64,000 nucleotides of DNA from positions 744,001 through 808,000 of the forward strand of contig NZ_CP012034.1 of assembly GCF_001050475.1 (NCBI RefSeq), written 5' to 3'. The position numbers were made by a program, and so were the translations under genes. This DNA is from Companilactobacillus ginsenosidimutans (GTDB lineage: Bacteria; Bacillota; Bacilli; Lactobacillales; Lactobacillaceae). Position 1 is the first letter of the stretch; each line of letters begins with the position of its first letter. The notes beneath the pieces are model-generated. The model was not told the DNA's origin, did no database searches, and worked only from the letters and a program-made list of their open reading frames with translations. Shown here piece after piece: positions 129-60,934 of this stretch.

Positions 129-251
129 AATATCAAATTTTTTCTTGTTCGATTTACGTATTATCCATTTTGATAGAACACGATACCCACCAACAAAAAT
201 AAATAAGTAGAGTACTAGCTGGAGGTAGGAATTAGATAATGCTCAGCACTG
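120..251 (-). pseudogene. Possible C-terminal remnant of a membrane protein
   Basis: On the minus strand a short frame runs from inside the palindromic element near 250 to a TAA at 120-122. It reads a hydrophobic stretch followed by a basic tail (GGYRVLSKWIIRK then lysine-rich). It has no start of its own and runs back into the palindrome, where a stop closes it. This could be the end of a gene truncated when the repeat arrived, or chance coding. No family is recognised. Confidence 0.25.
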
Positions 252-343
252 AAATTTGTGTTAGTCGGGGAATTGTCCCGACTTACTCAAATTGGCGTCC
301 AGTGCGTTCCAGCGTTATCTAATTCCTACCGGAAGCGGCAGTG
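221..343. repeat. Long palindromic element, copy 1
   Basis: Outer arms GGTAGGAATTAGATAA (224-239) and TTATCTAATTCCTACC (315-330) are perfectly complementary over 16 bp. Inside, GCACTG pairs with CAGTGC, and AGTCGGG (263-269) pairs with CCCGACT (277-283). The 3' arm is followed by CCGGAAGCGG. The same plan, with different arm sequences, recurs near 12.6 kb and 59.7 kb. It lies just downstream of the UbiA-like gene. Confidence 0.75.
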
Positions 344-11308: not shown

Positions 11309-12280
11309 ATGGAAGTTTTTGATTATGAAGATATCCAACTAGTTCCGAATAAATGTATTGTTAACAGCCGTTCTGAATGTGACACAAGTATCAAATTTGG
11401 ACCAAGAACATTTAAAATTCCTGTTGTCCCCGCCAACATGCAAACAGTTGTTGATGAAAGTTTAGCAGAATATCTAGCAAAAAATGGTTTCTTCTATATT
11501 ATGCATCGATTTGAACCAGAGAAAAGAATTGACTTCATCAAAAAAATGAACGAAAAACAACTTTTCACATCTATTAGTTTAGGAATCAAAGATGAAGAGT
11601 TTGCATTCATCAATTCCCTAGCAGATGAAAATCTCAAACCTGATTACATCACAATCGATGTTGCCCACGGTCACAGTGATCGAGTAATCGAAATGATCAA
11701 ATATGTTAAAAACTACCTACCAGAGACCTTCCTAATTGCAGGAAATGTCGGTACACCCGAAGGTGTGCGCGAACTAGAAAATGCCGGCGCCGATGCTACA
11801 AAAGTAGGAATCGGACCCGGAAGAGCATGTATTACAAAAATCAAAACAGGTTTCGGTACAGGAGGCTGGCAATTAGCCGCCATCAGACTCTGTGCCAAAG
11901 CTGCAAACAAACCCATCATAGCTGACGGTGGAATCAGAAACGACGGCGACATAGCCAAATCAATCCGTTTTGGAGCCAGCATGGTAATGATAGGTTCCCT
12001 ATTAGCAGGTCACGAAGAATCACCCGGTGAAACAGTAATAAGAGACGGAGTCAAATACAAAGAATACTTCGGATCAGCCTCCCAATACCAAAAAGGCGTA
12101 TACAAAAACGTCGAAGGTAAAAAAATGTTAATCAAGTGTCGAGGGAACATAGCCGACACACTAAGAGAAATGCAAGAAGACCTACAATCCTCCATCTCAT
12201 ATGCTGGAGGAAAAGATTTAGCATCCCTAACAAGAGTAGATTATGTAATAGTTAGAAATTCAATATTTAATGGGGACTAA
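11309..12280 (+). CDS. guaC: GMP reductase
   Basis: A 323-residue TIM-barrel enzyme of the IMPDH/GMPR family that reduces GMP to IMP with NADPH (purine salvage). The N-terminus [13 protein letters not shown], the loop [19 protein letters not shown] with its catalytic Cys (near residue 170), and [17 protein letters not shown] are characteristic; there is no CBS insert, which separates it from IMPDH. The start at 11309 (MEVFDYED) is chosen because the family starts there; the longer frame begins inside the inverted repeat. GAG-type ribosome site CTGGAGTG lies upstream. Confidence 0.93.
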
Positions 12281-12287
12281 ACAAAGA

Positions 12288-12402
12288 GCGTAAAAACACA
12301 CGATCTTGAATACGGAACATAAGACGCCCAACGCGGAGAGGGGTGCGTAACACCCCCGCAGCTTTGGGCGACTTATGTGCAGTATTCAGTGTGTTTTTAC
12401 GC
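12288..12402. repeat. 115-bp near-perfect cruciform downstream of guaC
   Basis: GCGTAAAAACACAC (12288-12301) pairs perfectly with GTGTGTTTTTACGC (12389-12402). Inside it TGAATAC pairs with GTATTCA, ACATAAG with CTTATGT, CGCCCAA with TTGGGCG, and GGGGTG with CACCCC around CGTAA. It starts 8 bases after the guaC stop. It lacks a T tail, so it is not a plain terminator; it could be an mRNA 3' stabiliser or a palindromic repeat. Confidence 0.8.
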
Positions 12403-12577
12403 GTTTCCACCAACCCAGAGTGAACCAAAACCACAAAATTGAATATCAACAATAAAAGAGTTGTATCCCACCAAACAAACCAGGTGAAATACAACTCTTT
12501 TTACATTCAAAAATAATAAAAATCCAAAATCATAATACCCACAAGTATTTTTAAAGGTTTAACCCCCAATCCAGTCG

Positions 12578-12760
12578 CAGGAGCTGAGAATATTTTCCCA
12601 GCTGTGAAAGTGATGCTATGGCGCCAGCCATAACATCACCGGGCGAGTTTGAAGACTTTCGCGAACTTCGAAAGGCTCCAAACCGAGGACAGAGACCGCC
12701 CTTTGGCTCCGTCCGTCCCGCACAGCAGGAAAAATATTCTCAGCTCCGGAGACGGCATCC
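12578..12760. repeat. Long palindromic element, copy 2
   Basis: GGAGCTGAGAATATTTTCC (12580-12598) pairs with GGAAAAATATTCTCAGCTCC (12728-12747). Inside are a GTGATG..CATCAC hairpin enclosing GGCGCCAGCC, a hairpin TTTGAAGACTTTCG..CGAAAGGCTCCAAA, and a third GC-rich hairpin. CCGGAGACGG follows the 3' arm. The second hairpin and the 3' signature match the element at 59.7 kb. A 72-residue frame crossing it is not believable as a gene. Confidence 0.75.
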
Positions 12761-12777
12761 AAGCTCAAAAGCATATA

Positions 12778-34437: not shown

Positions 34438-34467
34438 CACAAAAAAAAGCCACATTTCTGTGACTTT
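34438..34467 (-). terminator. Cold-shock gene terminator
   Basis: On the minus strand AGTCACA, GAAA, TGTGGCT and eight T, 18 bases past the stop codon. Confidence 0.88.
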
Positions 34468-34483
34468 CTTTATAGACTGCTAA

Positions 34484-34684
34484 TTAGTCTTTAACGATGT
34501 TAGCAGCTTGTGGTCCACGTTCGCCGTCTTCTACGTCGAATGTTACGTGTTGACCTTCGTCCAAAGTCTTGAATCCGTCTCCTTGGATAGCTGAGAAGTG
34601 AGCAAATACGTCACTACCATCTTCGCGAGTAATAAAACCAAAACCTTTATCAGGGTTAAACCATTTAACTGTACCTTGTTCCAT
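34484..34684 (-). CDS. Cold-shock protein
   Basis: A 66-residue single-domain CSD nucleic-acid chaperone. RNP1 KGFGFI and RNP2 VFAHFS are both intact, and the length is the family standard. Start at 34684 (MEQGTVKWF) has GGAGG nine bases upstream; a longer frame continues into the leader and is not real. A leader of about 100 bases upstream is AT-rich and unannotated, as is usual for cold-shock mRNAs. Confidence 0.96.
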
Positions 34685-34946
34685 GAATGAGAACCTCCAG
34701 CGCTTTTTGCGCAAATTTTTTGCATTGTTAAGCCAATTTCAGAAAGTAACCATTCGTACGAAAAATTAAATCTCTAACCAACTCTTAATACAATAGTGAT
34801 AGTATACCTTCTTTTTCCCAAAAAGGGAACTAATTTGGCACATTTAATACTATTTATTTTTTTATATGACATATTACTTACTTAAATACCGGTAATTCCC
34901 GATATGTTAATATTAAATTATCAAATAATAAATAAGGACGTGGCAC

Positions 34947-50021: not shown

Positions 50022-50190
50022 TAAAAAAAGTCCTATGATTAAAAATTAATCATAGGACGAATTATCGCGGTACCACCTAAGTTCCACACATTAGCTGCAT
50101 GACTCTCGATATCCGTAACATGGATAAGACGCAATCACTTACTGTTAGTTCAGCGATTAAACTTAGTGGACGAGTTCAATTTGATTAGTT
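50022..50190 (-). promoter_or_regulatory. T-box leader of leuS
   Basis: Minus-strand TTAGGTGGTACCGCG (50065-50079) is the T-box core. It is followed by a terminator GTCCTATGATT / AATCATAGGAC (50058 down to 50030) with seven T, just before the leuS ribosome site. Confidence 0.93.
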
Positions 50191-50259
50191 TAGCATTCTC
50201 ATTAACCATGCATTTTCTGAAAAACTAATGTAAATCTACTATTTCCTTTGAGTTACATA

Positions 50260-53823: not shown

Positions 53824-55029
53824 TTAGTCTTTAACTTTTGACAATGTTGATTTAATAGCATCAACCTTATCTAAATGTTCCCAAGGCAAATCAATATCTG
53901 TACGTCCGAAGTGGCCATAAGCCGCTGTTTGTTTGTAAATAGGTCTTTGTAGATCCAACATTTGAATGATACCTAGTGGTCTCAAATCGAAGTTCTTGTT
54001 GATACAATCAACAATTTGTTCCTCAGTGAATTCACTAGTTCCAAATGTATCTACGTGAATTGAAACTGGACGTGCTACACCGATTGCATAAGCAATTTGA
54101 ATTTCAGCTTTTTTAGCAATACCAGCTGCAACAAGGTTTTTTGCAATATATCTGGCAGCATAACTAGCTGAACGGTCAACTTTTGTAGCATCTTTACCAG
54201 AGAAAGCACCACCACCATGACGAGCAAAACCGCCATAGGTATCAACGATAACTTTTCTACCAGTAAGTCCTGAATCTCCTTCTGGTCCACCAATAACAAA
54301 TCGACCAGTTGGATTGATCAAGTATTTAGTGTTTTCATCAACCATGTTAGATGGAACCACTTCATCAATGACATATTTTTTAATGTCTTTTTGAACTTGT
54401 TCAAGTGTTGCTTCTTCTTTATGCTGAGTACTCAAAACAATGGTATCGATACGAACGGGTTTATCGTTCTCGTCGTATTCAACAGTTACTTGTGACTTTG
54501 CATCTGGCATCAAGTAATTGATAGTTCCATTCTTTCTCACTTCAGCGGTTTTACGCATAAGTTTGTGTGCTAAAGAAATTGGTAGTGGCATGAATTCTTT
54601 TGTCTCATCAGTCGCAAAACCAAAAACAAATCCTTGATCACCGGCACCAATTTGGTCCAATGGATCTGAATCTTTAGCTGATTCTCTTTTTTCAAGGGCA
54701 TCATCGACACCTTGTGCGATATCTGGAGATTGTTCGTCTAATGCAACTAAGACGGCACAACTACCACCATCGAAACCTGGATTTGAACCATCGTAACCAA
54801 TTTCCTTAATTGTGTTACGTACTACGCTTTGAATATCAACGTAAGCTGATGTTGAAATTTCACCAACTACGAGTACCAAACCAGTGGTAACGGTCGTCTC
54901 ACAGGCAACACGTGCGTCCTTATCTTGTTCCAAAAGTGCATCTAAGATTGAATCACTGATTTGGTCAGCAATTTTATCGGGATGTCCTTCTGAAACTGAT
55001 TCGGATGTAAATAAGTAATTCTTTGACAT
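53824..55029 (-). CDS. metK: S-adenosylmethionine synthetase
   Basis: A 401-residue enzyme making SAM from methionine and [23 protein letters not shown] at the N-terminus, [12 protein letters not shown] (near 125), and [17 protein letters not shown] (near 265) are the family signatures. Length is standard. It is under a SAM-sensing SMK box whose anti-SD includes its ribosome site. Confidence 0.98.
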
Positions 55030-55034
55030 AATAA

Positions 55035-55100
55035 ACTTTCCACCTTTCGGTTACAGGGCCTCTCCTTTGTTAAACAAAAAAGGATCCCATCAGGAACCTT
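55035..55100 (-). promoter_or_regulatory. SMK-box (SAM-III) riboswitch of metK
   Basis: On the minus strand GGTTCCTGATGGGATCC, an intervening AT-rich loop, then GGCCCTGTAACCGAAAGGTGGAA matches the known SMK core (GUUCC..GGAU..CUUGUAACCGAAAGG.GGAA). The AAAGGTGG ribosome site pairs in the SAM-bound fold, so SAM would block metK translation. This class is typical of Lactobacillales. Confidence 0.9.
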
Positions 55101-55200
55101 TTACTAGACTACCACAAAAAAATAGTATTTTCATGTAAATATTAAATTGACGACTGTCTTTAAGTCAATTAGTATAAATCTATATGTAAAGGAGTTTCAC

Positions 55201-59518: not shown

Positions 59519-59560
59519 TAAAAAATGACCAAAAACAAAAGTTTTCAGTCATTTTTTTAT
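59519..59560. terminator. Terminator-like hairpin
   Basis: AATGACCAAAAAC and GTTTTCAGTCATT pair with two mismatches, followed by TTTTT. Confidence 0.55.
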
Positions 59561-59702
59561 GAGTTTATAAACAAATTTACACAATTAATGTTTGATCTCA
59601 TTTTTCAACGTCCATACTGCAAGACGTCATCAACATAAAACATGAGACACTAAAAAGTATCCATATAAATCAAACTAATTTTTCATATTACACAAGACTA
59701 GA

Positions 59703-59869
59703 TGGAGGAAGAAAATCGATTTGGGCTAAATGGCTAAATTATTCTTAGTCGAGCGAACTTCTCGACTTAGAATAAGGTGCAGTTTGAAGACTTTTCGTAC
59801 TGTGGAAAGGCTTCAAATGCGCCAGCCATGTTCCAGCCCAAAAATCGATTTTCTTCCGGAATCGGAAGC
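59703..59869. repeat. Long palindromic element, copy 3
   Basis: GGAAGAAAATCGATTTGGGC (59707-59726) pairs with GCCCAAAAATCGATTTTCTTCC (59836-59857, one mismatch). Inside are CTTAGTCGAG..CTCGACTTAG and TTTGAAGACTTTTCG..GGAAAGGCTTCAAA. CCGGAATCGG follows the 3' arm, and the element ends at the asd stop codon. The first inner hairpin matches copy 1; the second matches copy 2. Confidence 0.78.
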
Positions 59870-60934
59870 CTAGTTCACATGAACCAAATCATCCTTAACC
59901 AAATGCTCGGCAATCTGAACAGTATTCCAAGCAGCACCCTTCAAAAGATTGTCAGAAACAACCCAAAGATTAAATGCACCCTTGTTTTCCAAATCAGGAC
60001 GAATACGACCAACGAAAGTTTCACGCTTACCAGTAGCATTAATTGGTTGTGGATATACTTGATGCTCAGGATCATCTTCCAAAACAGCACCTGGGAAATT
60101 CTTAACAGCTTCACGAATTTTTTCAACAGAAGCTGCGTCATGATCAACGGTATCGATCCAAATTGATTCACCATGACTAATTGGAACAGGAACACGGACA
60201 CAAGTAGCAGTTACTTTGATATCAGTTGAATCCATGTCGTCTAGCATAATCTTCTTTGTTTCATGAATCATCTTCCACTCTTCATGTGAGTACAAGTTAT
60301 CTTCCAAAACGTCAATTTGTGGTAACAAGTTAAATGCTAGTGGATAGTGTTTCTTATCACCCTTTGTAGGGAAGATGTCAGCTTTCATTTCCTTGCCATC
60401 AAGAAAATCTTGTGCTTCTTGCTTCAATTCGTTCAAGGCTGATTGACCAGCACCTGAAGCAGCCTGATAAGTTGAAACGATAATTTGCTTCAAACCAAAT
60501 TCCTTACGGATTGGTTCCAAGGCAACCATCATTTGAATTGTTGAACAGTTAGGATTAGCGATAATACCATGATGGTTATAGAGAGCTTTCTCGTTAACTT
60601 CAGGCACTACCAATGGAACATCTGGATCCATTCTGAAAGCACTAGTGTTATCAACACATACAGCACCACGTTTCACAGCTTCTGGAAGAAGTTTCTTTGA
60701 AACCCCACCACCAGCAGATGCTAAAACGATATCCACTCCTTCAAATGATTCTGGCTTAGCTTCTTCAACTGTTACATCTTGACCTTTAAATTGTAATGTC
60801 TTACCAGCTGAACGACTTGAAGCTAATAATCTTACCTTTGAAACTGGAATTGTTGATTGTTCCAATTGTTGTATTAAACGTGTACCTACGGCACCTGTAG
60901 CACCTAAAATTGCGACCTCAAAACCTTCACTCAT
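59870..60934 (-). CDS. asd: Aspartate-semialdehyde dehydrogenase
   Basis: A 354-residue NADP-dependent enzyme reducing aspartyl phosphate to the semialdehyde, the branch point for lysine/DAP, threonine and methionine. [13 protein letters not shown] (Rossmann loop), [10 protein letters not shown] (catalytic Cys near 131), and a late HGES are visible. Length is normal. It follows three aminotransferases on the same strand, 47 bases after the nearest, so the cluster may form one transcript. Confidence 0.96.

Follow-up and report, generated by a model that had tools for sequence, protein, structure and literature searches.

The ERIC and Correia/NEMIS elements are imperfect intergenic palindromes of 100-200 nt that are co-transcribed with genes and keep their sequence. 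The BOX and RUP elements of streptococci are modular or short non-autonomous intergenic repeats of Gram-positive bacteria. The attC sites of integrons conserve structure and not sequence: they are used as folded single strands, and their loops carry information. The REP/BIME elements are targeted by insertion sequences, including those of the IS3 family (PMC1525189, PMC2817692 and PMC3116915, each in its available parts). The MRSC-65-2 motif is described in the available text of PMC11109978 as a single long stem from diverse phyla, with dozens of copies per genome, strong covariation and UYCCGG repeats, and is suspected there of being a DNA-level mobile element.

We report here a repeat of ~170 nt from a Companilactobacillus genome of 2.59 Mb. 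With a probability of roughly 0.6 we take it to be a mobile DNA repeat of the Lactobacillaceae that is non-autonomous, is defined by its structure and belongs in general kind with elements such as REP/BIME or ERIC. It shares with REP/BIME and REPIN elements the form of a high-copy, extragenic, non-coding palindrome that often stands in inverted pairs and is a target of insertion sequences, in line with a sequence-only reading of three copies, which named a REP-like element among its options. Unlike REP/BIME, it is ~170 nt long with a branched core and arms that drift fully in sequence; unlike the REP/RAYT pairing, it has no dedicated Y1 (RAYT) partner that tracks it in the genus, and it is found in Lactobacillaceae alone. 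ERIC and Correia/NEMIS are similar in size and palindromic form, but the sequence of the present element is not kept, and by description it is set apart from them. BOX and RUP are likewise non-autonomous intergenic repeats of Gram-positive bacteria; the element is set apart from these by a broader model, R2, which among 398 genomes sampled from the class matched the own genome alone, the entries listed showing three members of Lactobacillaceae. As in attC sites structure prevails over sequence; the copies, however, are scattered and not arrayed. MRSC-65-2 is comparable in copy number, covariation and suspected mobility, and its UYCCGG can be set beside the TTCCGG of our element, but the latter is branched and belongs to one family, and is thus set apart by the description in the available text (PMC11109978). 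As a mobile palindromic repeat the element would fall within a general kind already known; its branched core and freely drifting arms are unusual.

The repeat folds into a long outer stem and, in most cases, two inner hairpins, with two internal loops that are conserved. It starts with a short basal helix, which often reads TTCCGG, followed by a GNA/GNA internal loop (e.g. GGA facing GGA) and then by the outer stem, 16-20 pairs long. Next inward lies an asymmetric internal loop, the two sides of which are in most subfamilies the conserved CUCAG and CGUUCCAG, and beyond it a short stem and then the inner hairpins. Copies of a Lacticaseibacillus-like type end in terminal inverted repeats, AGTGCCAAAGCGGAGCAATCGGAGG..CCGGAGATTGCGGAGTTTGGCACG, of the sort by which MITEs are recognized. 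In the Lacticaseibacillus-like loci L282-L308 several copies have seemingly related terminator hairpins ~50 nt upstream (GCGAACATACTC..GAGTATGTTCGC), and the hairpin could pass for a part of the unit. A GTTCACT-type motif near a T-run and a G-rich stretch is seen on both flanks in 13 of 109 copies of the own genome (e.g. L155, L135), as if the unit were longer or the target duplicated; a tandem-unit reading was also considered.

Three copies, all on the + strand, lie in the window, i.e. the whole stretch of 64,000 nt that was analysed. Copy 1 (214-345, +; genome 744214-744345; 88.8 bits with our covariance model R1) is a short type of 132 nt without the second inner hairpin. Its basal helix GCT and loop GGA (218-223, +, from the sequence and the covariation of the basal helix) face AGC at 334-336 and GGA at 331-333, which gives the GNA/GNA loop. 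The outer arms at 224-239 and 315-330 (both +, from stem search and fold) form the perfect 16-bp stem that had been correctly placed by the sequence-only reading, and with an extension reach 20 pairs, one of them a wobble. The fold of 221-343 has an energy of -57.1 kcal/mol (z -7.4), and none of 200 shuffles was as stable. A UbiA-type prenyltransferase gene (354-1274, -) has its stop codon facing the 3' end of copy 1, and a hairpin scan finds a terminator-like hairpin 5' of the copy (90-121, -); hence copy 1 is flanked by the stop codon of the UbiA-like gene on one side and by the hairpin on the other. No promoter pattern was found near copy 1. The suggestion that copy 1 had truncated a frame at 120-251 has to be given up: there is no gene there, as the overlapping + strand frames of at least 20 aa are merely 27-28 aa long.

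Copy 2 (12570-12762, +; genome 756570-756762; 56 bits, with support from its fold) has a third inner hairpin and the core of another subfamily, its outer arms lying at 12580-12596 and 12731-12747 (both +); the fold of 12575-12760 has a z of -7.5, with 0 of 200 shuffles as stable. On its 5' side an inverted repeat at 12454-12501, for which no strand is assigned, has an A-run before and a T-run after it, i.e. the form of a bidirectional terminator. A second family of long palindromes is represented nearby at 12288-12402, behind an IMPDH/GMP-reductase-type gene: the fold of 12280-12410 has -66.0 kcal/mol, its internal loops are also GNA/GNA-like, and relatives of ~70-85% identity are present in several other stretches of the own genome. 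Copy 3 (59697-59872, +; genome 803697-803872; 180.1 bits, again with its fold) belongs to the commonest subfamily and has its outer arms at 59707-59722 and 59842-59857 (both +); its fold (59700-59870) has a z of -9.5, equalled by 0 of 200 shuffles. The 3' end abuts the stop codon of an aspartate-semialdehyde dehydrogenase-type gene (asd type; 59870-60934, -), and a bidirectional terminator-like hairpin between A- and T-runs is seen in the sequence 5' of the copy (59520-59559, no strand assigned). The - strand of the window also carries a T-box leader (50050-50259), a cspA-type leader (34440-34833) and a SAM-III riboswitch (55027-55109).

The arms of these three copies are indeed mutually unrelated and still complementary, the inner loops have pieces in common, and the three occurrences of CCGGA..CGG in the window mark the 3' ends of the three copies. 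The further statement that arms are not conserved in sequence stands for the three window copies and fails genome-wide, where many copies share arms: the 5' arm is AAATCGATTT in 14 of 20 aligned copies and differs from it by one or two bases in the remaining six. Copies 1 and 2 belong to subfamilies other than that of the AAATCGATTT arm.

A search with the 3'-end pattern found 33 places in the own genome versus 4 with a reversed-pattern control. The covariance model R1, built from the 20 aligned copies, gave at least 132 matches there, from which 20 antisense echoes and 3 short pieces were removed to leave 109 copies (E <=3e-7 in 108 and 0.025 in one); a rescan of 528 kb of element-bearing stretches added 8 more. 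The genome thus has at least 116 whole or partial copies. The search by covariance model had been proposed from the three window copies, with a lack of further copies as the outcome that would count against the motif; it found them genome-wide.

Among 60 relatives R1 matches in 34, all Companilactobacillus, a genus with 36 members in the sample; two genomes of the genus, G006 and G034, have no R1 match, although many of their relatives have dozens. With the strict filters of the large-scale model searches, at which weak matches are lost, R1 matches in 116 of 397 Lactobacillaceae genomes, from 15 of 40 genera, and has no match in the other 281. The core pattern is found in at least 120 stretches of named genomes: among 80 pattern matches listed, 72 are in Lactobacillaceae, 71 of which match the model, and none of the 8 outside the family does so. 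Holders are Companilactobacillus, Levilactobacillus, Lactiplantibacillus, Lacticaseibacillus, Lapidilactobacillus, Schleiferilactobacillus and Pediococcus, and Secundilactobacillus has a weak match that is cut off at the end of the stretch. A copy from another genus has relatives in nine plasmid records and none in phage records; copies 2 and 3 themselves had no plasmid match, and the exact arm pattern of copy 3 had no match in the named genomes.

The family has apparently not been described before, in agreement with the suggestion of the sequence-only reading. Neither in the window nor in 20 loci from several genera did the element match Rfam 15, and the six matches around copy 3 with E up to 10 all lie far under the curated thresholds. 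No description of the repeat was found in the literature searched, and the available parts of PMC2267715, PMC6429828 and PMC12691593 do not describe it.

Covariation is strong throughout the structure. In the own-genome copies 96.4% of the cells are paired, with a score of 0.750 against 0.185 for shuffled and at most 0.120 for slid partners, and double changes occur in 57 of 58 pairs; across genera 98.0% are paired, the score is 0.806 against 0.198 when shuffled, and 54 of 58 pairs have double changes, all these values coming from alignments fitted to the model, which favours the structure. The first alignment, which was not fitted to a model, already had double changes in 37 of 58 pairs. One alignment, A2, went from 87 to 75 rows when duplicates were taken out together with its last six rows, which were weak, partial or antisense. 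Between genera the core remains recognizable, and the outer arms are unrelated yet complementary. Together with the covariation, this means that the main statement made from the window, of a structured motif with paired changes, holds on a far larger sample, the excess of paired changes that was to be counted being present.

It had been proposed that such changes reflect compensatory evolution. In functional RNAs the G-U pair is a tolerated intermediate between Watson-Crick pairs. The own copies have 102 G-U, 44 A-C and 153 other mismatches in 6080 cells (1.7% G-U), and the copies from other genera 75, 24 and 66, respectively, in 4046 cells, one mostly G-U position having been left out and alignment A3 reduced from 116 to 114 rows for these counts. 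As a yardstick, the acceptor and T stems were counted in 33 distinct tRNAs of the same loci: G-U accounts for 28 of 396 cells (7.1%), and other mismatches are absent. When the sequences are folded freely, G-U pairs number 249 on the modelled and 282 on the other strand per 6743 pairs in the own copies (~4%), and 184 and 166 per 4646 pairs in other genera. Comparable folds have 9.4% for tRNAs in sense and 4.2% in antisense, 11.4% for the T-box, 16.8% for the cspA leader and 14.3% for SAM-III: the element therefore resembles the antisense of tRNAs and not tRNAs or the other three RNAs. Of two marks of structured RNA, it has the covariation and lacks G-U as the favoured intermediate on a functional strand. 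On the modelled strand G-U exceeds A-C ~2-3 fold (102:44; 75:24), which in an alignment that leans to the model is a weak sign of selection there as RNA or single-stranded DNA.

The manner in which pairs change between close copies is likewise informative. In 27 nearest-neighbour comparisons (at least 88% identity), which have copies in common and hence are not independent, we counted 66 double Watson-Crick changes and 6 double changes of other sorts, whereas 30 changes were confined to one side, 10 of these passing through G-U; rows shorter than 120 nt and the two innermost pairs were left out of these counts and of those for the basal loop below. Of the 66 double changes, 32 are transversions or flips and so lie beyond the reach of a single G-U step, and adjacent double changes number 14 versus 3.3 expected. 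The scarcity of G-U, along with simultaneous and clustered double changes, implies that copying and exchange at the DNA level are the better explanation for much of the paired change. Ordinary compensatory evolution of an RNA, with G-U rarer than in real RNAs and double changes arising at once and in runs, is not supported; several counts support the conclusion that the covariation was largely made by DNA copying and exchange. Folding energy was tried as a test of strand and dropped: RNA parameters favour the modelled strand in 68 own copies versus 39, but shuffled copies give a similar split of 70 versus 37, so that the measure is uninformative. On unshuffled sequences alone, RNA energies favour the modelled strand in 60 versus 15 copies from other genera, and DNA parameters favour it in 95 of 108 own copies and 71 of 75 from other genera.

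The basal loop points to how one arm may come to match the other. Among 111 own copies of at least 120 nt, a column rule gives 10 in which the loop is exactly complementary, in both directions, 68 with GNA/GNA and 33 others, many of which read GNA/GNA in another register. The usual basal GATGGAGG..CCGGAATC is also seen as GATTCCGG..CCGGAATC and as GATGGAGG..CCTCCATC (or GACGGAGG..CCTCCGTC): both variants are the products expected if one arm templates the other. Template switching that makes the arms of inverted repeats alike is a known process (PMC8604942 and PMC7202029, in their available parts).

Exchange between copies is seen in two close Lacticaseibacillus-like genomes, G295 and G334, one locus of each of which is matched by a stretch of L. 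chiayiensis with 87% identity over 2.2 kb. On comparing all 35 G295 copies with 35 G334 copies (eight further G334 stretches being unused), 16 of the 35 lie at sites where both flanks are orthologous, and these sites hold the same copy in nine cases, a different family member in six and something in between in one. In the pair L283/L304 ends and flanks agree, and the inner hairpins are swapped as units. Such module exchange alone could yield part of the coupling between arms, without template switching; as exchange itself makes paired changes, the shares of arm copying and exchange are not separated by these counts. The nine resident copies differ at 7 of 1445 positions, in comparison to 83 of 3578 in the 5' and 51 of 3590 in the 3' flanks, the flanks being identical at three of the nine sites. 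That the copies are less changed than their surroundings may be due to selection for a host function or to correction of one arm by the other.

The first of these options leads to the alternatives in which the host makes use of the element. By a simple ORF caller, 74 of 108 copies have a 3' neighbouring gene that is directed towards the element, the stop codon being at a median distance of 23 nt. Within 300 nt of the element, 35 of 109 copies have a bidirectional terminator-like hairpin on the 5' side and 5 of 109 on the 3' side, which is often coding, as opposed to 0 of 109 in shuffled sequence. From the position of the stop codons and these hairpins it follows that the element often occupies the space separating the stop codon of a gene, to which it is antisense, from a terminator. 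It could accordingly be a cis-acting 3'-UTR RNA: the gene that ends just before the element would transcribe its complement, and the large hairpin would protect or define the 3' end of the mRNA or block antisense transcription coming from the convergent gene. The very stable folds and the low divergence of resident copies agree with such a role as much as the position does. However, the strand so transcribed is the complement of the one with the GNA/GNA loop, the excess of G-U is missing on it, and no fixed gene set is served: of 30 orthologous genus loci for each gene, 5 have the element no more than ~300 nt behind asd (L187, L189, L205 and L213, with L192 partial) and 2 behind the UbiA-type gene (L217 and L218), some of the loci ending early. 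We regard this role as unlikely.

That the many copies encode a structured non-coding RNA acting in trans could be argued from the elaborate conserved core and its covariation. Such an RNA is highly improbable, given that in 35 of 109 copies the terminator-like hairpins just mentioned stand upstream on the element's own strand, that among the rows listed no T-run follows the 3' end, that copy 1 has no promoter pattern near it and that the wobble signature is missing.

The neighbours of the 109 copies are convergent in 43 cases, co-directional in 30 and 22, and divergent in 12, one neighbour call being missing in 2. This would suit a DNA site used by the host, a cruciform or hairpin bound by a factor for the nucleoid, for topology or for transcription-replication conflicts, which would have spread and been tuned at gene ends and be kept by selection, with the reservation that the genome's own share of convergent and divergent arrangements is uncounted. 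The low divergence of resident copies and the presence of the element in 34 of the 36 genus genomes are in keeping with this too. Against it stand its absence, at the level of model matches, from the 281 Lactobacillaceae genomes and two genus members noted above, and the high turnover of copies; nor is there a clear preference for a replication strand (61 versus 48, with the halves read from the GC skew of element-bearing stretches). All told, a host site of this kind appears improbable.

The boundaries and turnover of the copies, in turn, support the preferred reading, of a mobile DNA repeat. In most of 1474 pairwise alignments homology stops at or near the 5' end of the element and within ~20 nt of its 3' end, with a tail of alignments in which it runs on farther; such ends are as for a mobile unit. 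Close neighbours tend to be inverted: in the 109 copies those less than 600 bp apart have the order -+ in 16 of 16 cases, and those less than 800 bp apart in named loci are -+ in 42 of 45, -- in two and ++ in one. The sequence-only reading, which also named a hairpin-mobilised repeat, had called for a comparison of occupied and empty sites. Sites turn over between relatives, and no clean empty site with defined ends was found in plasmid or phage records or in orthologous pairs. In the orthologous pairs compared there was an internal deletion, or the intergenic DNA had been replaced. The comparison that came closest, C. formosensis versus C. futsaii, was set aside as a deleted remnant: the element is complete in C. 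formosensis, and C. futsaii has just its 3' end (L379:2647-2822 versus L334 near 6720), an intermediate of decay. One near-identical pair at different sites showed no target duplication.

The search for a mover covered two Pfam families in one genus. The Y1 transposase (PF01797) is encoded by 18 of 36 genus genomes and was rejected, since it does not agree with element abundance and is missing from several element-rich genomes (G002, G007, G012, G014, G016, G022, G026 and G031, with at least 45-46 element matches each). Reverse transcriptase (PF00078), which a retro-element or group II-type repeat would need, is found in 12 of 36 genus genomes and not in the own genome; it was likewise rejected, as it does not follow the abundance of the element. 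The element is itself a target: an IS3-like insertion sequence with frames of 237 and 299 aa sits in the conserved internal loop of three copies (L159:2203-3812, at 416.6-418.2 kb of the genome; near 1205357; near 2405948), directly after CGTTC in two of the three. This recalls the insertion sequences that target REPs (PMC1525189, in its available part).

These features can be joined in a model that goes beyond the counts themselves. A folded single DNA strand or a cruciform would be recognised by a recombinase or transposase, and recognition of the fold would keep the loops constant. Template switching at the imperfect palindrome would copy a change in one arm into the other, and gene conversion, with the conserved loops as its anchors, would trade whole hairpins from copy to copy; arm-to-arm copying and hairpin exchange would together leave the arms free to drift. 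It is possible, and we put it forward tentatively, that the element represents a new class of mobile DNA of the folded-strand type, with a mover that is neither a Y1 enzyme nor a reverse transcriptase, and with template switching and module exchange giving covariation of RNA strength without selection on RNA.

The repeat, which seems undescribed, has more than 100 copies in one genome of a bacterial family used for food and probiotics, and offers a natural series for watching the evolution of a palindrome. It tests the assumption in RNA discovery that covariation means selection on RNA: if its covariation is made at the DNA level without selection on RNA, programs that take covariation as proof of RNA would have a systematic class of false positives. 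The mobilising enzyme, once found, could reveal a new way of moving folded DNA.
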